The translations under genes were made by a program, and so were the position numbers. The notes under the pieces are model-generated. The model was not told the origin of the DNA and did not search any database. It was given only the letters and a program-made list of their open reading frames with translations. Of a DNA stretch of 29,343 nt, positions 5,244 to 28,877 are shown in pieces. The first letter of the stretch is position 1, and each line of letters begins with the position of its first letter. The stretch spans positions 1 to 29,343 of IMG/VR virus record IMGVR_UViG_3300042691_044235, one strand, 5' to 3'. Source of the stretch: a virus.

Positions 5244-6959
5244 CTAAAGGAAGGTGTCATAGCCTATGCCCCGTCTCCTAGACCCTCTGGAAATACTACC
5301 GTAGGAAGGCCCAACCGTCAACCCCCCGTAGTCCGGGTCGTTTATGTATGCGTCCGTGTTTACCAATCTCCCCTTGTATGAAGACGTAATGCCATCTAGG
5401 CTTCGGGCTTGCTTATTTTGCATAATACTGTCTCTTACCCCTCTATCAACAACGTCCAGCTTTAAGGCATAGTAGGTAAGGGCCCAGGCGAAGGAATCCG
5501 TAGAGTCGTCGTGAGTAGAAAACGGGAAGGAGGTAACTTCTTTGATGAAGTCGTCGGTCCATTCCCCCCTCACCAACTTAACTCTATTAGCCTCAAGCAA
5601 AGGGCAAACTGCCTCCAGTCTAACTGTTTTAGATTTGAGGGGTTTCATCTCCTCTACGGCTATTTTAGTTTCTCGGCGGAGCATCTGGATAAGGGATTGT
5701 CCTGATGCCGCCTTTTCAATACACATTACTCGGGGCTTGTAGTAAGAATTTAAGTGCCTCACTGTGGCAATCAAGTCAGGGAAACCCCACCTTCCCTTTA
5801 TAATCTCTTTGATGTAAACAGTGGTGGGATCCCTATGGGAAATGCCTGCTATGCAAATTGCAGATTCGTCTGCTCGTTCATTTTCTGAAAAAGCACAGTC
5901 TAGCCCGAACCAGATCACGTCAAGGCCCGGATATTGGCCCTCCTCAACCACGTTAATCCAGCTGGACTTTACAATTTGGCCTTTCTTAGAGGTGGGAACA
6001 CCCATGTACATCGCATAAAAGGCCGCCGATCCCATAGTGTTTCTCTGGGAGTTTACGATGTCTGGAGTGAAGGATTTGTTTTGAGGCCAGTGAGTTTCCC
6101 CAATCTTCCTTCCTAAAATGTCCCTTTCAGCCTGCTCTTCTGTGTCAATAATACCTTGAATGTTGATCCATCGCCATCCGTTGGGATTCTCTACTGGGTC
6201 ATAAATCCCATCAACCTCCATCAAAACCCCGTGCAAATCCCTTTCGTGGAACCGGGTTCCTACAACTAGCTGGGCATAATTGTTGGTTCGGCGGGTGCTA
6301 AGCTCCTCACCCCACCATCTTTCTAATTCGTCTAAGGCTGCTTTGGAGTTAGAACCCTTCAAGGGGTCATCAATCAGCGAAACGCCGATCCCCGGAGATT
6401 CCTCACTGGGAGTACCTCCGGTGAATCCCGTCAAAACACCCCCTACACTGGTATTAAGGATATAGCCACCACTTACCAAGTCGTATTTGCTATTTTGGAC
6501 AAATCCTTGCCACTCAGGGAAAACCTTCTTAAATAAAGGGTGCCTCAAATAACCTATGGCTTCTTTGAAAAGTTTTGAGGAAAGTTGTTGGCCGTAGGAG
6601 GCAATAATGTGTTGGCTTTGGCCATCTATGCCCAGTAACCAGGCTACGAATAGGGCCGAAAGCATTGATTTCCCTGATCGTGGCGGGCAGGAAATGATCA
6701 ACCTTCGGTAACGCATGTTGACTAAGTCCTCAAAAGCCGACCCAATAATTTCGTGAAACTCAGCCACCTTAAGTGACCCTTCCTTCATAATGTCTGCGAA
6801 AGCTAGGAAGGATGTTTGCGCAGCCTTATACCTAAAGTCCTGAATGACTGATCTAGGGGCTTCCCATAATTGAAGTTCCTTGATACCTTCCTGGTATCGT
6901 CTCCATGTTGACTTATCAGGTAACTCAGATACGTGATTTACTAAAGGTGGTTGGTTCAT
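5244..6959 (-). CDS. terL: Terminase large subunit
   Basis: This 571-aa protein is the DNA-packaging motor and headful/cos nuclease. The ATPase half has a Walker A motif CPPRSGKS (91-98) and a Walker B motif VSLIDD (193-198). The RNase H-like nuclease half has LDCAFSE with Asp354, CIEKAASG with Glu415, and HDDSTDSFAWAL (483-494) supplying the last acidic residues. The length is normal for a two-domain TerL. It ends in TAG, one of few amber stops in the window, and the frame continues 33 codons beyond it. It lies near the end of the - strand structural block, downstream of a 95-aa coiled-coil ORF that could be TerS and of an ATPase-only paralogue. The upstream gap is AT-rich and has no clear Shine-Dalgarno. 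Confidence 0.95.
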   Translation of the reverse strand: MNQPPLVNHVSELPDKSTWRRYQEGIKELQLWEAPRSVIQDFRYKAAQTSFLAFADIMKEGSLKVAEFHEIIGSAFEDLVNMRYRRLIISCPPRSGKSMLSALFVAWLLGIDGQSQHIIASYGQQLSSKLFKEAIGYLRHPLFKKVFPEWQGFVQNSKYDLVSGGYILNTSVGGVLTGFTGGTPSEESPGIGVSLIDDPLKGSNSKAALDELERWWGEELSTRRTNNYAQLVVGTRFHERDLHGVLMEVDGIYDPVENPNGWRWINIQGIIDTEEQAERDILGRKIGETHWPQNKSFTPDIVNSQRNTMGSAAFYAMYMGVPTSKKGQIVKSSWINVVEEGQYPGLDVIWFGLDCAFSENERADESAICIAGISHRDPTTVYIKEIIKGRWGFPDLIATVRHLNSYYKPRVMCIEKAASGQSLIQMLRRETKIAVEEMKPLKSKTVRLEAVCPLLEANRVKLVRGEWTDDFIKEVTSFPFSTHDDSTDSFAWALTYYALKLDVVDRGVRDSIMQNKQARSLDGITSSYKGRLVNTDAYINDPDYGGLTVGPSYGSISRGSRRRGIGYDTFL

Positions 6960-12633: not shown

Positions 12634-13086
12634 TTATCTAACGAATCGGAGTTGGTTTTTAGGGCGCCTCCCCTCATTTTTTGCTTTTAAGGGTGCGGGA
12701 CTTTTTGCAACAGGTCTGGAAGTTTTCAGCTCTTTGATAGGGGTTTTCTCCACAGAAGGTTCTTTTAGGTTGACACCTCTAACTACATTCTGTGTATCAT
12801 CCGAGGCATTATCAACGGGAGTTTCTCCGGTGGGGGCAACCTCAGCGATAACTACTTCTGGTGTATTGTCAATAGGGGCTTCTTCGACAGGAGCAACATC
12901 GGATGCATCACCAATGGGAGTTTCCTCAGATAGAGAAACCTCAGCAGGAGCAACCTCAGGAGTTTCTTCGACGGGAGTTTCCTCAGTGGGGGCAACCTCA
13001 GTAGAAGCAACCTCAGCTTGCTCAGCAACAGGGGCATCATCCCTGAGGGCAACCTCTTGTAAATCAACTTTTCTTTTTCTTGGCAT
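12634..13086 (-). CDS. Acidic Pro/Glu/Val-rich repeat protein
   Basis: This 150-aa protein starts and ends basic (MPRKRK and a Lys/Arg-rich final 35 residues). The centre (about 15-100) is made of imperfect repeats of the type EVAP-x-EETPV, very acidic and likely disordered. Its place between the fibre-like gene and the spike gene suggests a flexible linker or a tail-assembly scaffold. The overlapping + strand ORF is only a mirror of the repeat. Function unknown. Confidence 0.65.
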   Translation of the reverse strand: MPRKRKVDLQEVALRDDAPVAEQAEVASTEVAPTEETPVEETPEVAPAEVSLSEETPIGDASDVAPVEEAPIDNTPEVVIAEVAPTGETPVDNASDDTQNVVRGVNLKEPSVEKTPIKELKTSRPVAKSPAPLKAKNEGRRPKNQLRFVR

Positions 13087-13100
13087 TTTAGTAAATAAAT

Positions 13101-15254
13101 TCAGTTTGCAAAGTCAAAAACGGCTTCTTCAGCGGCTGATAAATCTGCTAAGAAGAAGGCATAACCGACATTAAAATGGTTGGCATCTACCTTACCAGAG
13201 TTTTCATCAATCACGCAAGTGTTGGGAAGTTTGTAAATACTTGCGTCCCAAACGGGTTGGGTGATACCCTCTACGCTACCTTGGCCTATGTCGTTAATAA
13301 GATGTCCATTTAACTCAGAGCAGTCACTAATTCTATAGTAGTCCCCTTCCCAGTCACCATACCCTTTACCCATTAAGGAATCAGTATCCACCCTTCTTTC
13401 ATGTAAAGGGTCGTACTTCACTATTTTACCCTCATGGTACCCGTCTTTCACACTGTCGGACACGGGTGCTATGAAAGAATTGTTGTAGTCTTCAGGGTAA
13501 CTAAAGTCAGAGGTGTACGTGGAGTAGAAGTAGGGTTCACTGTAAACATAGTTGGATGGCTTATACTTATTCAGCTTGGCAACAATTTCCTCATAAATAT
13601 CTGGTTTTTCACCTTTGGCAGGACACGTCATGTCTTCCGGCAATGTAGGAGACCCCCAATAACCAAAATTCTGACAAGTCAGATTAACCTTTTGCCACTC
13701 TGCTCCGTCTCTCTGGTAAGAGGGTGGCAAACGCACAAAGTACCTTTCCCAGTTAGAATCCCCAGGGCCATCATTCATGTCAGCTATCAGACCATTGGGG
13801 TAGCTGAGGGATGTTTGCTCCATTAAATCACCTACACAGAACAAAGGGTTGCTTTTCCAAAGCCGTAGCAACGTTTCACTGTCACTGACATTGGGCGAGG
13901 CATAATAGCTTAAACCACTAAAAATAAGATGTGAGATATCAAAATGGTAGGAAGATGTTAGAGAATCAGATAGTGTTATTGTCGGAAATTTTATAAAACT
14001 TTCATAACTATCAGGTGAATAGTCGAAGGTAAAGTTACCATTGAAAGGATTTATGCTGTAGGTAAATTGGAAACCCTGTCCTAGAAAGGTTTCCCCATCC
14101 ACCAGCAAATTACCGTTGCAATAGATAAGAACAGTGTCAAAGTTTGCTGGGGTGGGGGGCTCACCAGGACTTAAAGTCTGAACCTCTATGGAGAACCCTG
14201 AACCACCCCCTATCTCCCCGTCATCTGCGTACAAAACATCATTTATTCTGTAATCTCTTCCCGGTTCTACTATGGCAACATCGGTAACTGATCCAGATGT
14301 GACGGTTATGTCAGCAGAGGCACCTTCCCCCTCTCCACCTAACAAAGCAATGTTTGTATAAACTCCGTCCGCATACCCTGATCCACCAATGAGGGAGTCT
14401 AAGGCAACCAAATTCCCTCTTTCACCTGTGTTAACATTGTACCAATCCCCTCTCAATTGCCACTGCATCGCAAAAGGATCATACTCCCAGCGAGTGAAGA
14501 AGAAAATTGAGGCCACTCTGTTGTAAGGGTTAGGCTCTGTAAAATCCCATTGCATTTCCCCCTCGACATAGGGTGTATAGTCGAGGGGAATAATAGAAGT
14601 CTCAAATAACCTCGTATTTCCTATGTACTTTAAGGTCGTAGGGGGAGACAAATACCATGACCCATCCTTATCATACTTCATCAGCACTACTGGGTAAGGG
14701 TCGCTGATTGTAAATTTTAAGTTTGACACAGTATAGTTTACACCACTACTTGTCAAGCCCGTAGAATCATCAATGTTTACTGTAACTTGGGTAGGCAAAT
14801 AAGGGGAATCTGAATCGAACGACGCTACGTCAGGGTAGGTAAAGTTAACAATTTGCCATCCGACCTCACCTTTTAGCCTACACAACCTGATGCCAAAGGT
14901 CGAAGACAGAATCTGTGTTATTCCGAGAATGTGGTCGGAGGGAGCTAAACCAGATCCGTCAAAAATATCAACTACGGTTCCCTCCGAAACTTCATCAGGA
15001 TACGCCCTGAAAGATGCCACATCTAGGAATACTAAATCTGGGGTGATTACAGGGTCTAAGCCGCTGGGGTAACTGGACTGGACCCAGGGGCCACAGTTTA
15101 GGGGGTCGTTTTGGTAAACTAAAAACTTTTTGTCATCAGGGTTCCACCATACTTGGACGGGTTTTTCTATAGGCGGAGGTGTCTCATTGACAGTTGTAAC
15201 CTGTTGGTAGACAATTTTTAGTAGCTCATCAAACCTTAAAACTCTTTGAAAAGG
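13101..15254 (-). CDS. Fibre- or baseplate-like protein; N-terminal start unclear
   Basis: The first normal start codon is GTG 15020, giving 639 aa. However, the frame is open for 78 more codons up to the TAG at 15255-15257 that ends the upstream gene, and those codons look coding (FDELLKIVYQQV, VQVWWNPDDKKFLVYQND, CGPWVQSSYPSGLDP). They hold no ATG, GTG or TTG. So the true N-terminus may come from amber readthrough, from frameshifting near an out-of-frame ATG, or from an uncorrected sequence error. Residues about 211-281 (counted from GTG 15020) form a Gly-rich beta domain, GSGYADGVYTNIALLGG...GGGSGF, also found in the J-like protein. The rest is beta-rich with many Tyr/Asp/Ser, typical of tail fibres or baseplate attachments. 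Confidence 0.75.
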   Translation of the reverse strand, partial: PFQRVLRFDELLKIVYQQVTTVNETPPPIEKPVQVWWNPDDKKFLVYQNDPLNCGPWVQSSYPSGLDPVITPDLVFLDVASFRAYPDEVSEGTVVDIFDGSGLAPSDHILGITQILSSTFGIRLCRLKGEVGWQIVNFTYPDVASFDSDSPYLPTQVTVNIDDSTGLTSSGVNYTVSNLKFTISDPYPVVLMKYDKDGSWYLSPPTTLKYIGNTRLFETSIIPLDYTPYVEGEMQWDFTEPNPYNRVASIFFFTRWEYDPFAMQWQLRGDWYNVNTGERGNLVALDSLIGGSGYADGVYTNIALLGGEGEGASADITVTSGSVTDVAIVEPGRDYRINDVLYADDGEIGGGSGFSIEVQTLSPGEPPTPANFDTVLIYCNGNLLVDGETFLGQGFQFTYSINPFNGNFTFDYSPDSYESFIKFPTITLSDSLTSSYHFDISHLIFSGLSYYASPNVSDSETLLRLWKSNPLFCVGDLMEQTSLSYPNGLIADMNDGPGDSNWERYFVRLPPSYQRDGAEWQKVNLTCQNFGYWGSPTLPEDMTCPAKGEKPDIYEEIVAKLNKYKPSNYVYSEPYFYSTYTSDFSYPEDYNNSFIAPVSDSVKDGYHEGKIVKYDPLHERRVDTDSLMGKGYGDWEGDYYRISDCSELNGHLINDIGQGSVEGITQPVWDASIYKLPNTCVIDENSGKVDANHFNVGYAFFLADLSAAEEAVFDFAN

Positions 15255-16208
15255 CTATAAATAGAGAGACTTTCTTTCGTCAAAACCGTGTAAGGACAAC
15301 GAGTCAAACACGTGGTGGAAGGGAAGGTAGCCGCCCTTATTGCCCCATGCTCCCAGGAAGTATTGGATAATTTTGCTATCCAACCAATCCGAAGGATCTT
15401 GCCACTGTTTAATCGTAACAATTAGGAAAGATTCCTCATGTTCTAATCTTGCTGATAGCCCTGTGTTTATGACTTCAAAGTTGCAGGGGATGCTAATAAA
15501 CCACAGGGACTTGTCAAAGTCGTAGGTTGGGGTTAATAGAGTGTCTTCACTGATGAATAGAACAACAGGTAAATCAAAATAGTATCTTGACCCTGTATAA
15601 AAAACATTGTATTTATAAGGGATGTCTTTTTCAGTATTGTAAAGAGGGTACAAAATTATTGCCCCTCCTTCAATCTTACAAGTAAAGGACCTATCGGCCG
15701 ATGCACCAGGCAAAGGTCTTCTAAAAGGAGGAGGTATGGCCTCTGTGGCGACTGTCTTTAATTGATTGGTTGAGGCAATGTCAGTGTAAAATTGATCCGG
15801 CAAGATTCCAAAGTCAAGCTCCAGATTTTCACCTACAGGGGTTGCCCCTTTGAGCAAATACTCCTTTTCATTCAACAGAAAAATCTGCCCCTCTTTTATG
15901 TAGGAATTGTTTTTGATAACAACTTTATTATCCCAATTTCTAATTTCTACGATTTCCGGGTAGATGTATCCGTTATAAACTCCGTAAGAACCTGCCAATA
16001 GCTGCCTTTTTTGGTCTACAGTCGCTGAGTAGGAATCCCAATAGTTGGACCCACTCCAGCCTAACAACTGCCCTAACCAATCCAATTGAGCAGGTACTCT
16101 TACCTTTACATCCAACGCCGCCCCAAATTGGTCTTGATTTAAGTAATTATTTATTTCATTCCTTAACTCAAAATTACTTACATCAAAGTTAGGAGAGTAA
16201 ATTGTCAT
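15255..16208 (-). CDS. P2-I-like baseplate protein (ends in amber codon)
   Basis: The 317-aa protein starts at ATG 16208 after AGAAAG. The segment at about 40-75, QLDWLGQLLGW...YWDSYSATVDQKRQLLAGS, is like the P2 gpI tail-protein motif (L-x-x-L-A-W...W-D...K-R-x-L-I...S), though diverged. P2 I proteins link the J wedge protein to the fibre, and the gene order here (J, one extra gene, this, then fibre) fits. It stops at TAG with the frame staying open beyond. The call is moderate because the motif is short. Confidence 0.6.
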   Translation of the reverse strand: MTIYSPNFDVSNFELRNEINNYLNQDQFGAALDVKVRVPAQLDWLGQLLGWSGSNYWDSYSATVDQKRQLLAGSYGVYNGYIYPEIVEIRNWDNKVVIKNNSYIKEGQIFLLNEKEYLLKGATPVGENLELDFGILPDQFYTDIASTNQLKTVATEAIPPPFRRPLPGASADRSFTCKIEGGAIILYPLYNTEKDIPYKYNVFYTGSRYYFDLPVVLFISEDTLLTPTYDFDKSLWFISIPCNFEVINTGLSARLEHEESFLIVTIKQWQDPSDWLDSKIIQYFLGAWGNKGGYLPFHHVFDSLSLHGFDERKSLYL

Positions 16209-16247
16209 CTTTCTCTTTTCTTCAAGGGCATTAGGATCTGTAAGATT

Positions 16248-17564
16248 TTACCCGCCCAATACAATCTGTTGGTAAGGGTTATAGGGACACGCCCCATAAC
16301 TAATTTCCACCCCTTGCTTCTCCAAATTAGAATACTCTTTCGCCATAGCTGTCGCAGGGCTCATCCAATACTCTGGAAAATTTGAAAATTGATTGTACAA
16401 ATTCATTAGAGATTCGTCCCAAGGGCGGGTCAACCATTCTGCAATAGGTTCATAACTATTAAAAACAATTTCCCTAATGTCCTGTATGCTTGTTACCGTG
16501 AAAGCATTATTTATGTCTACGTAAGCTAACTTGCAAAGGATAAGGGGGATTTCCTCTCCTAAGGAATTTGTGAACTTGTCTGGGACGGCATTTAGTGGGT
16601 AGGCAACAAGTGCGTAATTAGTTGTCATTGTCGCTGGTTTTTTCTCCAAAGTTACCACGCCAGATACGCTCACATCCCTAATCGAAACTTTGGGATCAGA
16701 CCATTCTACTTTCCAGCCTTTGCAAGGGAAAGAATCATCTATGGAAAAATCATAGACTTGTACCCCATCCTGAGAGGAGACTTCTGTAGTTTGCCAGAAG
16801 TTCCATACAGGGGTGACACAAAAACCATCATCACCTTGCTCAGAACAAGACATGTAGTATAGGGTTGCTGTGCCAGTGTAGGTAGTTTTTGGGGGGCACT
16901 TAAGGAGAATTTTATTAAAAGTGCAAGGTAAGGGAAGTTGCCAGCTTAGCTCAGCGCTTCCAGCATAAGTAGGAAAGGCAGCGTCATAATTTGACCAGTA
17001 AAGTTGGTTGTCACCCATGAAGGCATACTGCGGGGTGTATCTCCACCCTATGACTGCATCCGTGCCACTCTGTATCTCCATCTTGAAGCCAGATAAGGAG
17101 AAATCTGATACTTCGTATTGGGCCTGAATGGGGGAATCGTCATAATAAAGCTGATAGGCAAGTAGGTACTTTGCACTACCCATTCCCACCAATTCTATGT
17201 CTATTAGAACAGGGTCAACGGGGATTGTACCATACTTCCATACAATTTGCCCACTTTGTATTGTCAAATACTTATTTTCTCCTGAGGTTTGCACCACCAT
17301 CGAGGTAGAACCTGTTATCCCCTGCCCCACGGGGATGTAGGGGTATGCCGTGTTGTTATCTAAACCAAAATCTATTTTGTATCTCTCCGAAGCAGCAGGG
17401 AGGCGGTCATAAATCGGTCTACCCCCGTTCTTCCATTCGGTTGGAATCGGATTTAATTTATTTACGTCTGTGTATTGTTTGGAAAAGAAAATTCCCTGTG
17501 TGGAGTTATTGTTGACAACAATGGTTTCTCTGCCGCCATCTATGGGATTTAATTGCTGAGACAT
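16248..17564 (-). CDS. Baseplate-associated protein of unknown family (438 aa)
   Basis: This gene sits four bases after the J-like gene and before the P2-I-like gene, so it likely belongs to the baseplate wedge. The N-terminus has GGRETIVVNNNSTQG. The middle is beta-rich with many Tyr, Trp and Gly and paired Cys. The C-terminus is helical (about 380-425: EWLTRPWDESLMNLYNQF...AMAKEYSNLEKQG). It may correspond in role to gp8- or gp7-like wedge proteins, but I see no motif that proves this. Confidence 0.7.
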   Translation of the reverse strand: MSQQLNPIDGGRETIVVNNNSTQGIFFSKQYTDVNKLNPIPTEWKNGGRPIYDRLPAASERYKIDFGLDNNTAYPYIPVGQGITGSTSMVVQTSGENKYLTIQSGQIVWKYGTIPVDPVLIDIELVGMGSAKYLLAYQLYYDDSPIQAQYEVSDFSLSGFKMEIQSGTDAVIGWRYTPQYAFMGDNQLYWSNYDAAFPTYAGSAELSWQLPLPCTFNKILLKCPPKTTYTGTATLYYMSCSEQGDDGFCVTPVWNFWQTTEVSSQDGVQVYDFSIDDSFPCKGWKVEWSDPKVSIRDVSVSGVVTLEKKPATMTTNYALVAYPLNAVPDKFTNSLGEEIPLILCKLAYVDINNAFTVTSIQDIREIVFNSYEPIAEWLTRPWDESLMNLYNQFSNFPEYWMSPATAMAKEYSNLEKQGVEISYGACPYNPYQQIVLGG

Positions 17565-17568
17565 TGTA

Positions 17569-20500
17569 TCAAAGGGCTAAGGTTCCCTGACCATAGACAG
17601 GAGGTGTTAGTACAGACTGGGTGCCTGAATACCAGGATAGTTCGGACTGTTCTAAAGAGGAATCGGTAGACTCCCATACATAGATCAACCTTTGATTAGC
17701 CCCATTGACAGTGGAAGAACTTTTTGGAATTATTGTGATTTGACAAGGGCCTAATTTTATGGAAGATGTTCCATCCCCAAATTGGGGCAAAATAGGTTCT
17801 TCACAGACATACCCGCACACAATCCTCAGAAGATTTCCCGTAAATTCCTCGTACCTTGGGCTATTTGTTTGATTCAGCCCGTTATACCCGGAAACAGTGG
17901 CAGCGGGTGTAAATGCTTTCATCACCCTGTAAAAACTACTATCGTTTTCATTTACGATAATGTCCTCAGCAAAGTTTGCATAGAGGGGGTTGTTGTAAGG
18001 GATAGAATATTCGTAGGAGGACTCAAGATCGTAAAAACTTGATGCCTCAACGAAAGTGCCATTGTTGTAATAAACCTCAAAGTCGAAGACAGGGGTGACA
18101 GAAGATGTTGCTACGTAAGATCTGATTTCACTACCATTTCTGAAGAAAGTGACATCGCCTTTAAAAAAGGTGAACATTCTTGCAGGTTTTGTTAAGGGCG
18201 TGTCATCAGGAGGGTTAATACTTGATACCTTTAAGGTAAGATCAGAGCCTGTTCCCCCTAAATAAGCGTTGTCTACTGTCAAAAAGTCCCCAACCCTGTA
18301 GTTTTGCCCTCTATTGGACGTAAATACATAGGAAGCATAGCCATTTAGTACAGTAATGTTTGCTGTGCCAGAGATTCCGTCACCACCTATTAAAGGCACA
18401 TTGCTGTAGGTGCCATCCACATAGCCTTCACCTCCATACACAATAGTCAATTTCCCAATCTGACCAGAAAAACCCTGAGCCAATTCCGATGAAAATTGCT
18501 CTTTAAGCTCAGGGGTTGGGGCAAGGTCTATGACATAGTCCCCTACCAAAAGATCCTGAATGTTGGTTGAATTAGGGGTGAAATACTGAGCAGCTATGAA
18601 GTAATTAGAAACAGACTTGCTATCTTCCTTATATTCTAAGTATTGGCCAGCCTTAAACCTTGGCTTATACTTATAGATTGGCAACCCTTTGTTCCCATCA
18701 AAGGTAACAACCTCTTGCAGAACCCCCTCTTCTACCAGTTGATCAAAGTAATCGCTTACCTTTTCGGAGTTGGGATTATAGGTGAATCCGCTTACTACAT
18801 AAGCATACTTAGTGACCACCCCTTTTGTAGTATCAACGTAGTAGTAATTAGGGTCAATTTCCTGGTTAGGGCCACTTCCAACCTGAGGGGTATAAACCCA
18901 TGTCCCTGCGATGTAAGATGTTTCTGAGGTTAATTCTTCTGGTACGATGGCAGGGCCTAACTTGAAAGCGGACTGAGCACCCGTTGTACTATTTGTTGAT
19001 GCCTCCAGTTGAAAATTCTTGCTAACTAACCAAGCTAAGGCCCCTGGCCTGCTGTTTAATGGGGCATTATCAGGGAACGCAGGTATGAAATCACCACTGC
19101 TATAGTCAAACTCTATGATTTCAGGGTCTATTGTCCCTAAATTAGAGTATTGGTAGGTGTTTCCAACGACCCAGGGACTGTAATTCTTTACTTCGGAGAT
19201 TTTACCTGCATAAATAAATTGCAAAAATTCAGAAGTTGAGGAAACGGTAATGTTCTCTAAAACAACATGGAGCCCTTGTTGACCTGATCCAACCGTATCT
19301 TCATAGTAAACTATGTCACCCAGCTCAAAAGAACCAGAAGCCGCTGATTTTATCTGAGTTAGCTTAAGGTTGCCGTAAACCGTTTGATCAAATTTATCAG
19401 TTGAGTAGGGGGTGAAGTTGGCAAGGACAGGGTAGAAAACAGGGTTTGGCGTATCTACTCTTACCAAATCCCTGATAGACAGTAAATTAGAAGTTGGTAA
19501 AAAATTATAAATTTTACTGTAGGTGGCGGAAGTTATTCCTAGGCCATTCGGGGTGTTGAAAGCGGAAGATGAGAAAATGTGAGGGTCTGAGAATCTTGTG
19601 TCAGCCGTGAAGTATGTGTAGAAAGCAGCATCTACGTCGCTGACTGTGGGGTTTATTGTGGCCGGGAAGGTATTACCGGGCGTCAAAACCTGGAATAGAA
19701 TGTTTCGGAAGTTAAGGGAACTTTGCCTAAAGTCACTACCAAAGGTGCCGTTAGGGTTTACCTCTAATGTCAAATTGTATTGGACTTGGCTAAGGGTTAT
19801 TGGGAATAGGTGGCCTTGATTTTCTACAGGGACGAGAAAATTTATGGCATTTTGTCCATTTTTTATCTCTGTCTCTGTGAGTTCTACGCCGCCGGGGCCA
19901 AGTACAAAGAAGGATACTTGCCCATTTGGCTTAGCATAATCGGAATTGTAATTATAGGCAAACTTGCTTGATCTGTTAGGTTGAACAGATGTCAGTGTGC
20001 CAATTCCGTATAAATCGGTGAAGAAATCTTGCCAATCCGTTTCACTGACAAGGTTTCTACGGCGGATTAAAGTGAAAAATCTTTCCCTAACCTGTTGATA
20101 AGTTTCTACGTCGCTTCCGCCAACGGCAGGTTTAGGATTGGAGATTGATACGGCAAATTGACCTAAGCTGGAGGAGCCTGTAATTGACTTTGCGGGGACG
20201 TTGTAAAGAGTTCCTACGAAGGTGGAATAAACGGGGACTTTGCCTAGGGTTTGTCCCGGCGGTATCGTTACATCTTCATAGGAAACAAACTCGTAGCTCT
20301 GCCCCCCAGAAAGCTGAGAGTTTGTTGTGAAGGATGTTCCTGCTGGGATGACAATAGATACATTCTGAGGATTTATTGCGACTTCGACTTGGGCTACGGC
20401 TGGGGTGCCCAGTCTGCGCATCGCCCCTAAGAATGGCCCAATCCATTCTAAAAGAATTTTATCTGGTAACTGATTGGCCCAAAATAGCAACTCACCCTGG

Positions 20501-20664
20501 GCAAATGCCTGGCCTTCTAATAAAACGGCTAAGGGGTTACCTGCGCTGAAATCATTTAAGGTGCGATTAGAAGCGTCATAGACAACCTGAGCGGCTTGCT
20601 GCACAAGCTCAGTTTCGTTTCTTGGGTCAATACTTACCGAAGGTAAGGGTGCGTATCTTGGCAT
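17569..20664 (-). CDS. Baseplate J/gp6-like wedge protein (1031 aa)
   Basis: The N-terminal 330 residues match baseplate J/gp6 proteins: helical VQQAAQVVYDASNRTLNDFS, then LLFWANQLPDKILLEWIG, a beta domain with IPAGTSFTT (about 107-115), then SNPKPAVGGSDVETYQQVRERFF (about 174-196; the PxxGGxDxE...R.R pattern is the family hallmark) and SETDWQDFF. Such proteins form the ring of the contractile-tail baseplate. The remaining 700 residues are a large beta-rich extension. They include a Gly-rich domain (about 737-816, GGEGYVDGTYSNVPLIGGDG) that is shared with the fibre-like protein at 13101. Typical J proteins are 300-500 aa, so this one resembles the larger gp6-like forms. Confidence 0.88.
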   Translation of the reverse strand: MPRYAPLPSVSIDPRNETELVQQAAQVVYDASNRTLNDFSAGNPLAVLLEGQAFAQGELLFWANQLPDKILLEWIGPFLGAMRRLGTPAVAQVEVAINPQNVSIVIPAGTSFTTNSQLSGGQSYEFVSYEDVTIPPGQTLGKVPVYSTFVGTLYNVPAKSITGSSSLGQFAVSISNPKPAVGGSDVETYQQVRERFFTLIRRRNLVSETDWQDFFTDLYGIGTLTSVQPNRSSKFAYNYNSDYAKPNGQVSFFVLGPGGVELTETEIKNGQNAINFLVPVENQGHLFPITLSQVQYNLTLEVNPNGTFGSDFRQSSLNFRNILFQVLTPGNTFPATINPTVSDVDAAFYTYFTADTRFSDPHIFSSSAFNTPNGLGITSATYSKIYNFLPTSNLLSIRDLVRVDTPNPVFYPVLANFTPYSTDKFDQTVYGNLKLTQIKSAASGSFELGDIVYYEDTVGSGQQGLHVVLENITVSSTSEFLQFIYAGKISEVKNYSPWVVGNTYQYSNLGTIDPEIIEFDYSSGDFIPAFPDNAPLNSRPGALAWLVSKNFQLEASTNSTTGAQSAFKLGPAIVPEELTSETSYIAGTWVYTPQVGSGPNQEIDPNYYYVDTTKGVVTKYAYVVSGFTYNPNSEKVSDYFDQLVEEGVLQEVVTFDGNKGLPIYKYKPRFKAGQYLEYKEDSKSVSNYFIAAQYFTPNSTNIQDLLVGDYVIDLAPTPELKEQFSSELAQGFSGQIGKLTIVYGGEGYVDGTYSNVPLIGGDGISGTANITVLNGYASYVFTSNRGQNYRVGDFLTVDNAYLGGTGSDLTLKVSSINPPDDTPLTKPARMFTFFKGDVTFFRNGSEIRSYVATSSVTPVFDFEVYYNNGTFVEASSFYDLESSYEYSIPYNNPLYANFAEDIIVNENDSSFYRVMKAFTPAATVSGYNGLNQTNSPRYEEFTGNLLRIVCGYVCEEPILPQFGDGTSSIKLGPCQITIIPKSSSTVNGANQRLIYVWESTDSSLEQSELSWYSGTQSVLTPPVYGQGTLAL

Positions 20665-20704
20665 TTTTATCTCAAGTTAAATATCCTTAGGCAAAGGATA
20701 GAGT

Positions 20705-21178
20705 TCAGTATGTGCCGTTGTCTATGACCAATGTATCAAACTGCTGCTCTAAAATCCTCTTCGTTATTAAATCTGTGGGGGCTAAGGAATCAAATTTCTG
20801 AGGAATAGATGGCAGGGGGATACCGTTAGCATAATCGTATTTTATGTTTGTCAGAAAGCTGGTAGGGGCAGCGTCGACACTTTGCTCAATGAAAGGGTTT
20901 AGGTCAGGGTCGTAGCCGAAGGCCCAAAGTCCTGTGGCAACTTTATTGCCTGAGATGGGGGAACCTGAAATGAATACCCCGCCACTGGTCATGTTGGGTT
21001 GGTCAGTACCCAAAGTAACATACCGTGAATCTAAGCCATTAGGCCCACGCAGAACCAGTGATTCTAAGCCCAGGGGGTTATAGTGGTGGTCAAGGTCTTG
21101 GCCATCAAAATAGATTTGTTTGAATCCGTTTAACCATTCGCTGGTTACAACTACCCCTTTGCTAAACGTTGTCTTCAT
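20705..21178 (-). CDS. Unknown structural protein (157 aa), first gene of the baseplate transcript
   Basis: The N-terminus, TTFSKGVVVTSEWLNGFKQIYFDG, resembles the start of many short phage tail or fibre-attachment proteins, but I cannot name a family. The rest is polar with Asp/Asn/Pro-rich loops and no Cys or membrane segment. It is the first gene after the MCP/tube terminator and a candidate promoter, so it may be the first gene of a new transcript that contains the baseplate genes. Confidence 0.7.
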   Translation of the reverse strand: MKTTFSKGVVVTSEWLNGFKQIYFDGQDLDHHYNPLGLESLVLRGPNGLDSRYVTLGTDQPNMTSGGVFISGSPISGNKVATGLWAFGYDPDLNPFIEQSVDAAPTSFLTNIKYDYANGIPLPSIPQKFDSLAPTDLITKRILEQQFDTLVIDNGTY

Positions 21179-21233
21179 TTAACTGCTTCTGTATGTCTTA
21201 AGGGTTTTACCCACCTTTAACATGTTGAACTTT

Positions 21234-21262
21234 TTTAAAAAATTTCCAAAGTTTTCAATCAA
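21234..21262 (-). promoter_or_regulatory. Candidate promoter for the baseplate operon
   Basis: On the - strand TTGATT (21262-21257) and TTTAAA (21239-21234) are 17 nt apart, upstream of the gene starting at 21178 and just downstream of the tube-gene terminator. The -10 is weak and the region is very AT-rich, so chance is possible. Confidence 0.35.
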
Positions 21263-21289
21263 GACGGCTGGGTAGTTATAGGTTGGCAA

Positions 21290-21314
21290 TAAAAAAGGGT
21301 CCTTTCGGACCCTT
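21290..21314 (-). terminator. Terminator after the capsid-tube transcript
   Basis: On the - strand AAGGGTCC (21314 end) and GGACCCTT form a perfect 8-bp stem with a GAAA loop, followed by a T run (about 21296-21290). It lies 20 nt after the tail-tube stop. Confidence 0.88.
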
Positions 21315-21334
21315 GGAAAAATTCACTTAAGGAA

Positions 21335-21778
21335 TCAAGTTCTATCCCAGCTATTGACTGTAAACTCCACCTCGATCTCCTGAACGTCGCCGCTTTCACG
21401 GTCAACGTCTGCAGTGTTGATTGAGAGGAATCTGCAACCGTAGCAAGTGTATTGGCCTCCCGCAGGGGCCGATCCATTTCCTACGCAGTCTTTAGGCGTA
21501 ACAGTGATAGTAATGTCTTCGCAATTATACTGAAGCCAGTAGATTTCCAATTGTTTGAAAATTGTGGGATCGTATGGGGCAGTCAAGGTGACGTTGTCAG
21601 CCGTTCTGGGTCCCGTAATTTTGAAGATTCTATTTCCTGTACCGTTGGCATAGGTGCTATCATCCGAGGAATCTTTGATTCCACTGAATTTTGTGAAAAC
21701 CGCTATCAGAGTTGGCCCGCCTGGGGCTACAAAGGATACCTCATATTGGGCCTTTGTAATTGGTCTTAGGATAGCCAT
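21335..21778 (-). CDS. Tail-tube-like protein
   Basis: This 147-aa protein has a strong ribosome site (AGGAGGTG) and follows the capsid gene by 33 nt. The layout fits tail-tube (gp19-like) proteins: a first strand YEVSFVAPGG, a FTKFSGIKDSSDD loop (the F-x-x-x-S-G motif), a middle TAPYDPTIFKQLEIYWLQ, and a C-terminal GDVQEIEVEFTVNSW, which matches the common ending of tube proteins. Cysteine positions (CEDI, CVGN, CYGC) are unusual for the family. The assignment rests on pattern and context; no sheath gene is visible in the window. Confidence 0.6.
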   Translation of the reverse strand: MAILRPITKAQYEVSFVAPGGPTLIAVFTKFSGIKDSSDDSTYANGTGNRIFKITGPRTADNVTLTAPYDPTIFKQLEIYWLQYNCEDITITVTPKDCVGNGSAPAGGQYTCYGCRFLSINTADVDRESGDVQEIEVEFTVNSWDRT

Positions 21779-21811
21779 GTGAGCACCTCCTTTTTTAGGT
21801 TATTCCGTCCG

Positions 21812-22511
21812 TCAGGACAGAATGTCGGTGATCATTGCGCCAGAACCGATAAGACCGGTGGCACCGAGGCCAACCAGATTTACAACACGTTCGACAGTGA
21901 TTTCAGCACGCACAACACGGCGTTCGCGCACGTAATACTCCGGACGCACAGAAGGCGTCCCGGTGAGTTGATACGTGTAGCTAAAGGCGGGGGTAGCCGC
22001 ATTAGCACCGCCAGCGGGCATGATTGAATCAGAGGGGCCGCTGGGGCTGTAGAACAGCAGGATTCCGTTTGAAGGGAATACAGGCTGCAGGCTGCCATTA
22101 GCAGCCAAATAACGACCTTCAGCAACACGCAGACCACGCTCAAGACCGAAGTAACGTGCAAGCACGTCAGTGTCGATGCTATCAGCGGAGGTATACTTGA
22201 TACGCTCAAGGATCGCCTGATTGGTCAGCAACTGGTCAAACACTGCGGTTCCAAGAACAGCAGAGTTTGGGCGAATACCAATCTGGTTTGCAACGGCACG
22301 CTTCAGGGTCAGAACGTCCTCAATGGGGTTGCCAGAGAGGGCGGACCATGCGGCGGGGCCGGAGGCGGTACCATACGCTGTATTGAAATCAGTCCAAGAT
22401 TCAAAACCGAGACCGGTTTGTGAACCAGCGACTGTATCCCAGGGTTCGTATGGGTTGTAGGATGCGGTGACTGTCACAGCCTGAGATACGGTGTACTCAT
22501 AGCTGTTCATC
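21812..22511 (-). CDS. Major capsid protein, exon 12 (C-terminal 232 residues)
   Basis: This is the only long exon. It begins G-ATG in the reading frame, so the ATG at 22510 is an internal Met (residue 129), not a start. It holds the shell domain, including RAVANQIGIRPNSAVLG (a common coat-protein motif), ILERIKYTS, YYVRERRVVRAEITVERVV and the C-terminal GLIGSGAMI. A separate start at 22510 would give a coat protein lacking its N-arm and E-loop, and no ribosome site is present. Confidence 0.92.
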
Positions 22512-25500
22512 CAATTTGTTATCGTAAAGGCTCTTTATCCTTTACCTCTCTACATTTCTGCAGAGTTCAGACTATATCATCTCCCTTGTTACTTTTCTTT
22601 AAAGCAATCGTCTGCTTTTGTTTTTCTATTGACTCTTTAGACCGTTTAATTGTACCGTTCTTCCTTTTGGTTTCGTTACATTTTTCTACAGTCTCCCTTT
22701 TCTTTTTGGCAAGCTCTTCTGGATCCATTTCGGATTCACGTTTTCTCCTTGTTTCCCAACCTTTTAATACAGGTGTAGATCCGTCAAAGTTAGGGTTAGC
22801 TAATTTTTTCTGGTTAGCCTTTTTGGCTGCCATACTTCTTTTTAGGATGGCCTCCGGGGAAAAATCGGTAGCTTTATCGTTACCTCTTCTCCTCCTTGTC
22901 TCCCAAGCTTTATAGAACCTTGAGTTGTAATCCTCAGCCGTCTCCTTCCAGGTCTCCCAACCTTTGTAAACAGCAGCTGAATTATCTAAGTCCTTTTTAG
23001 CTTCTGAGATCAAGCTACCAAGCATGACAGACATCTCTTCTGTCCAACTATACCTATTCCTCTTCATGAATTGATAAGCGCAAATCATGGGAGGACTAAT
23101 CATAGTTTTAGCTAGGAGTAAGTGAGCAAATAAATGCTCTCTAATCGTCAATTTTACCAGGTTATCTTCAGAGTCATCTCCACCCATACCTTTTGGGACT
23201 ATGTGATGGATGTGAAAGTTATCCTCTTTTTTAAGGCCTCTTTTTAGAGATTTAGCAAAAGAAATAAACTTCCAGTACCTCCTCTCATAACGAGAGGAAA
23301 AGTAACAAGAAAGTTGGGCGCTCGTGGATGATTTATTGTTGTCGATACTCATCATCTAGTCGTTGAACCTTTTTACTGTTTACTCCACAGCTATTATAGC
23401 AGGGGAGCCGACCCAGTAAACTTGGCTGCTGATTACCTTTTATTATCAAAGAAGTCAATTTTGATAACAGTCAGGCTTCCCAGCAATTCACCCAATTTTC
23501 TAAGTGAGCTATAGCTCACAGGGCCAATTTAATTAGCCTTGACATCGCATTTCTTGTCTCTATCGCCCTCAACAATTCGTTACAAAAGGCTTTTTAATAC
23601 CTTTTCTCTATGTCTCCATAGAGTTCAGACTATATCATCGTTTTGCTAAGCAAAACGTTGGGCGCTCGTGGGCGAGTTATTGTTGTCGATACTCATCGCC
23701 TAGTCGTTGAACCTTCCTAACAGAACCAACACCATAGCATGGTGGAGTTCGACCTGTTAGGCTTGGCTGCTGATTGTCCTTGCACCAACACATATAGCAT
23801 TAGTGCCTAGGAGATCCCAGCAATTCACCCAATTTATAGTGGACCTAAGTATGCCATCGAGACTGTACTTTTGTAATCCACTTGTGCAGGCATCTGCTGT
23901 TATCGCAAAGGCTCTTTATCCCTTGCTTCTTTACATTTCTGTAAAGTTCAGACTATCTCTTAGCATTACAGAACTCAACCCATTCAGGGTCTTCTTCTGG
24001 CACCCATTCAGAACGAAAATAGTTTACCATTCTTCTTATACTTTTAGATGGGGCTACTCCTGTGGCCTTTGCCAGATTCCTGTACCCGTTTCCGGAGTTA
24101 CCTGAACCAGGCTTTTTAGGTTTGGCTAATAAATTAGCCCACACGTAATGGAAATAATCAGCGTCTTTCCAAAGGGAAAGAAAACTAAGATCACTTCTAT
24201 AGGTGTGTTCCCAGGGCTTATCCGGTAAGCTATCTCCTTTGAATTGATAGCGATCCCAGAATCTTTTCAAGTTAGTAGCCTTTAAACCTTTTTGTCTTCC
24301 CCTGGAAAAACCCTTGAGAAACCGGTTTAAGGCAGAATGGCTGAATCCCAGTTTTGTTAAAAGCAAGTGAAGGATGAAATGCTCCCTGTACGATACTTTG
24401 ACCACCCAATTCCTATCAAACGAAACCCAGCTCTTTGACCAAATCTGTTTGGGTATAGGATGATGCTCTTCGTATAACTCGGGGGGATCTTCCCTCTCTT
24501 CAAACTTTTCAATAAGGTTCCAATACCATCTTTCGTATTTACTTATGTAGGCGCATTTAATGCTCCGGGCGCTCGTGGACAAATTATTGTAGGGGTTACT
24601 CATTGTCTAGTCGTTGGACCTTCTTGACGTGTCCTATGCTATTATAGCATTCCCCTCGTCAAGCTTGGCTGCTGATTGCCTTGTTTTTCAGGGAAGTCAA
24701 ACCCGAAATCTTAAGGTGTCCCAGCAATTCACCCGGTTCTTATGTGAAGTTTAAGCCGTCACTGAAAGGGCCTTGCAACCCTCTCCGGCGTTCTCGATTC
24801 AATGTTGTTATCGCAAGGGCTCTTTATCCCTTACTTCTCCCTGTTTCCAAGGAGTTCAGACTATATCTTCACCCTCACAGGGTGTTGGGCACTCGTGTCA
24901 GCCTCATCTCTGTTCTAGAGGTACGCTGTTAGTCGTTGAACGTTCCCCTTATCCCTAAGGGGCTTCGCTGCTGATTGCCTGTTTTTGCAAAGCAAAAACT
25001 CAGGCTTCCCAGCAATTCACCCAATTTTTCCTTCAACCTTGCAGTTGAGGGAGGCTATCGTTAACCTCTTCCAATGTGTTATCGTAAAGGCTCTTTATCC
25101 TTTACATCTCTCTGTTTCCAGGGAGTTCAGACTATATCATTACCTCCAAGTTGCCAATCGTCAGATTGTCAATTAGGTGGTATGGGGCACTCGTGTCAGC
25201 CTCATCACTGTTCTAGTGGTACGCTGTTAGTCGTTGAACCTTCGTTTTCTCCCGAAAACGCTTGGCTGCTTATTGTCCTTGTTTCACTTTAAGTGTAACC
25301 GAGGATGTTCAAGCAATTCACCCCATTTTCATTTCGCATAAGCAAAATGGCCCGAAAGTTCAGGCAGCTCCCATGCGACCACTTCCTGCTCTAGAGCATA
25401 AGGCTCAGAGTCGTAACGGCTTTGGACGAAGGGAATGTTTGTACCGTATGCACGGCGGTAATCGTTAATTGCAACATTATGTTATCGTAAGGGCTCTTTA

Positions 25501-28500
25501 TCCCCTACTTCTTTACATTTCTGTAAAGATCGGACTATCTCTTTGTTTTGCTAAGCAAAACACCGGGCACTCGTGTCGACTTCATCACTGTTCTAGTGGT
25601 ATGTCGTTAGTCTCTGAACGTTCCCCTTATCCCTAAGGGGCTTCGCTGCTGATTACCTTTGCACCATTACTCCGTAGAGTTTGATACCGAAGGCTTCCCA
25701 GCAATTCACCCAGTTTTACAACAGCAAGCATTTACTGTTCCTTCATTGTTGTTACCGTAAGGGCTCTTTATCCCTTACCTCTTTACATTTCTGCAAAGAT
25801 CAGACTATATCATTGCCCTCCAGTTGATAATCCTTGAACTTTCAACTAAGGGGCATGGGGCTCTCGTGTCAACCTCATCACTGTTCTAGTGGTACGTTGT
25901 TAGTCGTTGGACGTTCGTTTTCTCCCGAAAACGCTTCGCTGCTGATTGCCTTGTGTTTTGATTACTCAAAACCGTCAGGTTTTCCAGTCAATTCACCCCA
26001 TTTTTCATAGTCCCTCACAGGACTAAGCGGCATTTGGAATACCGAAACGCAAAATGCGTCCAGCACGGGTCGGAGTATCAACAACGGGTGCGATGAACAA
26101 TTAAGTTTTGTTACAAACTTACTTTTGTTACCGTAAGCGAGTTTACCACTTACTTCTCCCAGTTTCCTGGGAGTTCAGACTATATAATCATCTTCCTGAA
26201 ACTTCTTAATAACAATTCTTAAAGATTGCCAAGTATTCCCTATCCCCGTGATCCTGTGTAAGCGTCTAGCTCCACATTTTTCATTCTCCACCCAAGCCTT
26301 GTATAAGGCTTCGACATTAGACCAGACGTCTTTATCTGATCTGGAATTTTTAATTCCTGTCCTATCCCTGTCAGGTCGATTAGCAACCTTGAGAGCGTGT
26401 TCTATGGTAGGGTTATTTAAGGCACTTTCTCTTAATTTTTGTCTTGATTCGTCACTCCATTCTCTACTCCTGCACCTTTCAGCTCGTTCCCATCTCTCTT
26501 GATCAGACATTGGAACTTTTCTCTTTAAAGGCTTCCCTAATTTTGCGGCCCTAATTTTAGCCTTGGACTCTTCAGTGTGTCCATGGTAAACTAAAGTCTC
26601 ATAAACCCTGGATGTTCTAGCCTCTTCCCTGAAGAAGTTCAGGGCTTTACCAAGTTTCCTGTCAGAGAAAAATGCTAAAGCTAAAAGGCAATGGGCCAGG
26701 TAATGTTCCCTGTAAGTTAATTTTATAAGGTTACTTTTTTCATCTCCACCATCCATGCACCTTGGTACTATGTGGTGAACGTGAAAACCGGGACCTTTTC
26801 TTAAATCACGGGTAGGGCGGGAAAGAATGAAATCTTCGTATCTCTTGAAGTGTCGAGAAGAGTCGGGCGCTCTTGGAAAGGTTATTCTTGGGTCAGTCAC
26901 TTTCTAGTCGTTGAACCTTTTTACTCAATCCTATTGTTACCCAATAGGTACCCTGAGTAAACTTGGCTGCTGATTGCCTGTTTTTGCTTTGCAAAAACTA
27001 AGGTGTCCCAGCAATTCACCCGATTGTTCGATAGGGGTCACCCCCTAAAGGAACCTCATTGATTCGCGATGTTGGTACTCGGTAGCATAAAGCCTTGCGC
27101 CAGTGTGGTCAGACAATTTGTTACCGTGGGGGCTCTTTATCCCCCACCTCTGCAAGTTTCCCTGCAGATCAGACTATATCATACTCATTGAGCAGACAGT
27201 CTAATTTTTTCTGTAGCCACAGACTTGCCTAGGGTCCGCCACTACAGTGTTCCTCTTTCGAGGAAGTTTTGTGTGAAATTAGATTGTCAATGTTCGTAGG
27301 TGTTGTTCTCTCTAAAGTTAAAGCCTTAGGAGAATCACCTTTGTAGCAATGAGCCCCGGCGCTCGTGGAACTTTCTTCTGTTCTAGATTACTCGTTCTAG
27401 TCGTTGGACCTTGCTCCTATCCCTAGGAGCCTTGGCTGCTGATTGCCTTAGTCTCGGAATCTCTTCCGAAGCCGTAGGCTTCCCAGTCAATTCACCGGGT
27501 TTTCCTCTCCCTAAGAAGAGGCCACTCTTTGGCCCACTTCAATTCAACACAGGGTTGATTAAAGCAGCCATGCAAATGGGCACTTATGTTATCGCAAAGG
27601 CTCTTTATCCTTTGCTTCTCTCTGTTTCCAGAGAGGTCAGACTATCTCATTATCCTTAAGGTTTTAAGTTAAGGATACTGGGCGCTCGTGGGACTTTCTT
27701 CTGTTCTAGATTACTTGTCCTAGTCGTTGGACGTTCCCCTTATCCCTAAGAGGCTTCGCTGCTGATTGCCCTAGCTTTGGAATCTCTTCCGAAGCCGTAG
27801 GCTTCCCAGTCAATTCACCCAGTTTGCTGTATCCGTTACCGGGTACAGGGACCACTTGTTAATCCACACCTGCGTAGGTCTGTTGAAGCATTTTTGTTAC
27901 CGTAAGGGCTCTTTATCCCTTACTTCTCTACATTTCTGTAGAGTTCAGACTATATCATCTTCTCGGCCCTCGGCCCAGGTTCCACCCCTCTCCGGGATGT
28001 TCTGAAGACCTAGTGCTAATCACAACTCCGTCTTTTTCAGACCAGTACCACTTTTGATTTGATACGGCCCCCCTTATCTTTGCTTTTGTGCTTTCTGACT
28101 GTTTAGAGCCAGCCCTAGAACATAGGTCCTTCATGTTTGGGTTTTCACTCCAAACCTTTTTCATACCTTCGGATATTTTATCCTTATGCTCTTGAGATTT
28201 AACCTTGTCCCTCAGAGAACTGCTTATCTTATCTCCCCATGTAACATTCCTTTCTGAGTTCGATTGAGCTATCCTTGCGGATTTTTCCTCGCACTTTTGA
28301 AAGTAAGTAAGGGAAGAGTAGAACTTGGTCCCCTTAGAACCACACATTATAGAAGCACATTCACCTAATTTTCGATTGTCTGGAAAAGACTTGTGAAGGA
28401 GTAAATGTAAGATTGAATGCTCCCTCCTGGTAACCAGAATGACATTCCCCTCTTCGTATTCTCCCCCTAGGCATCCAGGCAAAATTCGGTGCTTCTCCAA

Positions 28501-28775: not shown

Positions 28776-28877
28776 GATTGATGGTCTCTCTACGTAAGGT
28801 TGACTTCAAAGATTGCCTAAGCAATCTGCCCGCAAACCCTAAGGGTTGCAGACACTGGATTTATACCCAATTGCGTT
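28776..28877 (-). promoter_or_regulatory. Leader and candidate promoter of the capsid gene
   Basis: Between the methyltransferase stop and the capsid ATG lies a TATAAA (28865-28860) that could be a -10; no good -35 is visible. Two hairpins follow: GCAACCC/GGGTTTGC (28832-28849) and a perfect GATTGC/GCAATC (28811-28826). They could protect the mRNA end, or be remnants of a terminator, though they lack a T run. GAGAG precedes the ATG by about 10 nt. Confidence 0.4.

Follow-up and report, generated by a model that had tools for sequence, protein, structure and literature searches.

A putative virion gene of an IMG/VR virus, interrupted by one in-frame amber codon and unbroken in its relatives

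The interrupted gene and its surroundings

The window analysed here, a 29,343-base IMG/VR virus record, carries its structural genes on the minus strand. There, a 317-aa ORF (16208-15255, minus strand) terminates at an amber codon, TAG, at 15255-15257. Past this codon, the same frame stays open for another 717 codons and closes at a TGA at 13101; the first in-frame ATG, GTG or TTG on the way is a GTG, at codon 79 (15018-15020). A first-pass annotation had described this arrangement, a TAG with a 78-codon open frame and no start codon behind it, and had remarked that these codons read like protein. Both observations were borne out: the 79 codons following the TAG have a codon-usage score of +0.283 per codon in frame (the mean for the window's genes is +0.25), whereas the five alternative frames score -0.25 to -0.72. 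Read through, the product would be 1,035 aa long. The features are listed in Table 1.

Table 1. Coordinates of the interrupted gene, its parts and the control stop codon in the window
Feature	Coordinates	Strand	Support
Single gene of 1,035 codons, broken by TAG at codon 318	13101..16208	-	Full-length alignment to 43 distinct unbroken relatives
N-terminal 317 codons, read as far as the TAG	15258..16208	-	
In-frame amber TAG, codon 318	15255..15257	-	Sense codon in relatives; 80 homologous ORFs read across it
79 codons after the TAG (78 ahead of the GTG), open and coding	15018..15254	-	Conserved positions 324, 326, 329, 330, 333, 334
Downstream remainder of the interrupted gene, unbroken to its own TGA	13101..15017	-	
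Terminal TAG of the terminase large-subunit gene (control: acts as stop)	5244..5246	-	Pfam Terminase_6C; relatives' ends coincide

The window also holds a feature far more striking than the amber codon, namely a major capsid protein gene split by introns. This gene is scattered in small exons across 21812-28800 (minus strand), with exon matches at 27888-27862, 27124-27062, 26097-26041, 25472-25359, 24798-24778, 23890-23867 (weak), 23572-23531 and 22510-21815. Ten matches to the Rfam group I intron (RF00028, 51-104 bits) lie between 23199 and 28776 on the minus strand, and the ORFs amid the introns (22567-23355, 23953-24603, 26175-26900 and 27955-28824) include regions resembling one ORF of Synechococcus phage S-CBWM1. 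The relatives' major capsid gene is intact, at about 355-365 codons, and is one ORF in L091, L094 and L098. The gene at 20705-21178 (minus strand) stops at a TGA ~22 residues earlier than 13 homologous ORFs do, and what follows the TGA is dissimilar to the homologues' tails; this gene appears to have lost its C-terminal tail. In S-CBWM1 itself, ARAGORN reported an asterisk-marked tmRNA (L100:3885-4202) with the tag ANKIVAFHRQAVSCA, adjoining a large tRNA array.

One open frame across the relatives, and its probable product

An alignment-based search of IMG/VR recovered 67 loci, and all relatives were then reduced to 43 distinct ones. All 43 carry the gene as a continuous open frame in which a sense codon stands opposite the TAG, and their 43,250 codons together include no internal stop. 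Searches with the N-terminal part or with the downstream part led to the same genes. Between residues 306 and 340, none of the 43 carries inserted residues that the window gene lacks, and none has a gap in the TAG column, which is occupied by Pro in 21 of them, by Gly, Ala and Glu in four each, by Gln, Ser, Asn and Asp in two each, and by Thr and Arg in one each; three relatives carry GAG there, one base from TAG. Since all 43 relatives carry one open frame through the place of the TAG, the alignment indicates that the locus is a single gene containing one internal amber codon rather than a pair of genes at an odd junction. The first-pass division into two structural genes therefore fell away, and its impression that the downstream codons continue the upstream gene was confirmed. 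It had also proposed a comparison of relatives at this codon, which returned a sense codon within one long gene in 43/43; the in-frame ATG that relatives might have carried at the junction was found in none.

The relatives are similar to the window gene over its whole length, at 36-43% identity in A1 and 31-50% in A2. This similarity to the S-CBWM1 gp84-like virion protein family is full-length and collinear, and the window gene departs from the family's single uninterrupted ORF by a TAG at codon 318 seen in the window only. Judged by its alignment, the window gene is a broken copy of this family and not a separate family. A search of IMG/VR with an exact pattern across the TAG, its codon left open, returned no second copy of the window genotype; near-identical DNA was not found among GenBank phages, nor a relative in GTDB genome contigs.

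The gene upstream of the interrupted gene encodes a Baseplate_J domain (Pfam) and has a PHROG baseplate wedge match, and from this gene order the interrupted gene's product is probably a tail or baseplate protein. Its position after a Baseplate_J-like gene is only suggestive of an identity with P2 tail protein I or the T4 gp7 baseplate wedge, a candidate for which we found no match to a curated family or a solved structure. The window protein had no Pfam match, and none of the 44 aligned members matched a tail protein I family in Pfam, so the first-pass label of a P2-I-like gene was not retained. Profile searches found no PDB relative, fold searches gave no PDB match below E 0.001, and BFVD yielded a strong match to S-CBWM1 gp84 plus one other protein below 0.001. 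The PHROG matches of the interrupted protein, to tail fibre and wedge families, are confined to a single glycine-rich domain (residues 597-728).

This glycine-rich domain (GGxGYxxGxYxN...) is common to 13101-16208 (residues about 597-728) and to the Baseplate_J gene at 17569-20664 (minus strand, residues about 732-813), and both copies match the same PHROGs, phrog_5342 and phrog_438. It is missing at the corresponding place in most relatives of the interrupted gene, and looks like a mobile domain.

Origin of the amber codon and alternative readings

A protein maximum-likelihood tree (LG+C20+F+G4) recovers the window gene as sister, with support 100/99, to that of L027 (IMGVR_UViG_3300014050_000004), an uncultured viral contig whose copy of the same gene has 935 codons. 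The window reads TTA TAG CCT where L027 reads CTT CAG GAC; L027 thus differs by a CAG (Gln) in place of the TAG, and the change from CAG to TAG is one C-to-T transition. CAG is a likely rather than a certain direct precursor, because the branch to L027 is long and L025, with GGC in the TAG column, has the higher raw identity to the window gene (50%, against 44% for L027).

We consider it highly probable that the TAG is a private, accidental one-base nonsense change in a single virion gene, whether introduced in the consensus or carried by a mutant allele. Originally a sense codon, most likely the CAG (Gln) seen in the sister lineage, codon 318 would have become TAG by one C-to-T transition, either through an error in the metagenomic consensus or in a mutant allele within the sampled population. 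Intact, the gene would yield a single polypeptide of some 1,035 residues, with no dedicated device. Were the TAG real, most ribosomes would halt after residue 317, and the 717 residues downstream would come from background readthrough only, unless the host suppresses amber codons. We infer that the base change is recent as well as accidental.

A scan of the relatives' ORFs against the window revealed that the TAG at 15255 is the only stop crossed inside a gene, in the coding sense, by many homologues (80 ORFs). Other stops were mostly crossed by antisense ORFs of the relatives, and the few coding-sense cases lay at gene ends or upstream of starts. The same scan showed no frame jumps, and no further break of this kind was found in the parts of the window that align to relatives. 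Weighing against the accidental reading, the rest of the window bears no general sign of poor sequence. If the consensus is taken to err at 1e-4 per base, about 0.08 nonsense errors would be expected in the window's 5,534 codons, an expectation so low that the accidental reading leans on the finding having been picked as an oddity. Across many scanned windows, such nonsense cases must turn up, and mutants in the population add more.

The use of TAG elsewhere bears on the alternatives. The TAG that ends the terminase large-subunit gene (terL) at 5244 falls exactly at the ends of three relatives' terminase ORFs; TAG also terminates the interrupted gene's homologues in L025, L026, L037 and others, and behind the window's other TAG-ended ORFs the frame closes 14-35 codons later. 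On these comparisons, TAG does function as a stop in this genome. A terL TAG in register, a single crossed TAG and no frame jumps together leave both reassignment and generally damaged sequence unsupported. The suppressor tRNA search that the first-pass annotation had proposed found no tRNA genes in the 29-kb window, and none of the tRNAs in S-CBWM1 or in the two tRNA-rich contigs behind L025 and L044 bears a CUA anticodon.

The foremost alternative, which we regard as improbable, is that the TAG is fixed in the lineage and that leaky translation yields a 317-aa short and some 1,035-aa long virion protein. It would account for a downstream frame of 717 codons that is intact and conserved in sequence, and the TAG column tolerates many residues, so an inserted Gln or other residue is probably harmless. 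However, programmed stop-codon readthrough is recognized by a stop conserved at the same place, and a stop stands there in 0/43 relatives; suppressor tRNAs were found neither in the window nor in the tRNA-rich relatives, and the RNA fold downstream of the TAG is ordinary (z -0.38). We know of no readthrough signal of the form TAG CCT. The region 13000-21800 contains no known RNA element, its sole match, below the gathering score, being due to chance. The first-pass proposal of an I-fibre fusion of ~1030 aa was close in the length of the single chain (1,035 aa); its premise of two genes failed, and no positive sign of readthrough emerged. A lineage-specific leaky amber, derived from a Gln codon and setting the ratio of short (317 aa) to long (1,035 aa) protein in one cyanophage, seems less probable again. 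A genuine amber, fixed in the lineage, would amount to a natural readthrough switch of an unusual kind for a structural gene of a tailed phage, but nothing in the data calls for one.

Gene fission, with the TAG a true stop and the downstream part a separate protein with its own start, is very unlikely. Position 318 varies within the family and sits in a short loop flanked by predicted strands (315-316 and 320-325), where a cut might be tolerated. However, conservation begins 6-12 codons past the TAG, with hydrophobic residues at 324, 329, 330 and 333 and F or Y at 326, and positions 324, 326, 329 and 330 precede any usable in-frame start, which speaks against an independent second gene. The earliest near-cognate start codon, an ATT at 15213-15215, corresponds to residue 332, past most of the conserved positions, and the first standard start, the GTG at 15018-15020, has no Shine-Dalgarno-like stretch just upstream. 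An AlphaFold model, built with the TAG read as Gln, is confident on either side of the cut (block means 84, 94 and 90) and places a strand (320-325) and a helix (326-333) directly after it. The cut would thus fall inside a region predicted to be ordered, part of which a separate second protein would miss.

We give hardly any credence to a reassignment of TAG to Gln (code 15 type), or to the suppression of TAG late in infection that the first-pass annotation had suggested. The sister's CAG does encode Gln. However, a TAG-recoded phage is recognized by many in-frame TAGs in its late genes and by leaving TAG unused as a terminator, whereas in the late genes that align, a single TAG is crossed, terL ends at a TAG in register with its relatives, TAG ends the interrupted gene in L025, L026 and others, and a suppressor tRNA was not found in the window or the tRNA-rich relatives. 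The terL TAG and the absence of other in-frame TAGs effectively rule out reassignment. The least probable account, with next to no weight, is a frameshift from an out-of-frame ATG or an indel error in the A-run: TAAGG does lie four bases ahead of this ATG, which is at 15227-15229 and not at about 15209 as first annotated, but its frame comprises three codons (MSY) and then a stop, and the main frame is continuous with the relatives on both flanks of the run, where an indel would break it, so that the alignment rules out both.

Comparison with known phages

The analysis removes a false lead, that of a recoded or slippery junction between two genes. The situation resembles that of classical phage amber mutants, in which one nonsense codon interrupts an otherwise intact gene; those mutants are plaque-derived, whereas the amber in the window is known from a metagenomic consensus alone.

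Phages using code 15 (TAG to Gln), such as crAss-like phages and phAss-1 (PMC9523058, PMC10607447), share with the window an in-frame TAG at a Gln codon of a relative. In phAss-1, TAG is reported to occur in 41 ORFs (PMC10607447), against one in the window, where TAG also stops terL.

The closest named counterpart is S-CBWM1 gp84 (ATW62768.1, MG450654), which matches both parts of the window gene in the same order: the N-terminal part is covered over 98% at 38% identity, and the downstream part over 88% at 32% identity. Within this one annotated protein, the N-terminal match stops one codon ahead of the downstream match. S-CBWM1 gp84 differs in being an unbroken 1,209-aa ORF, in its longer C-terminus and in the GAC (Asp) that it carries in the TAG column. 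The corrected gene model is one 1,035-codon virion gene, common to S-CBWM1 and dozens of uncultured phages.
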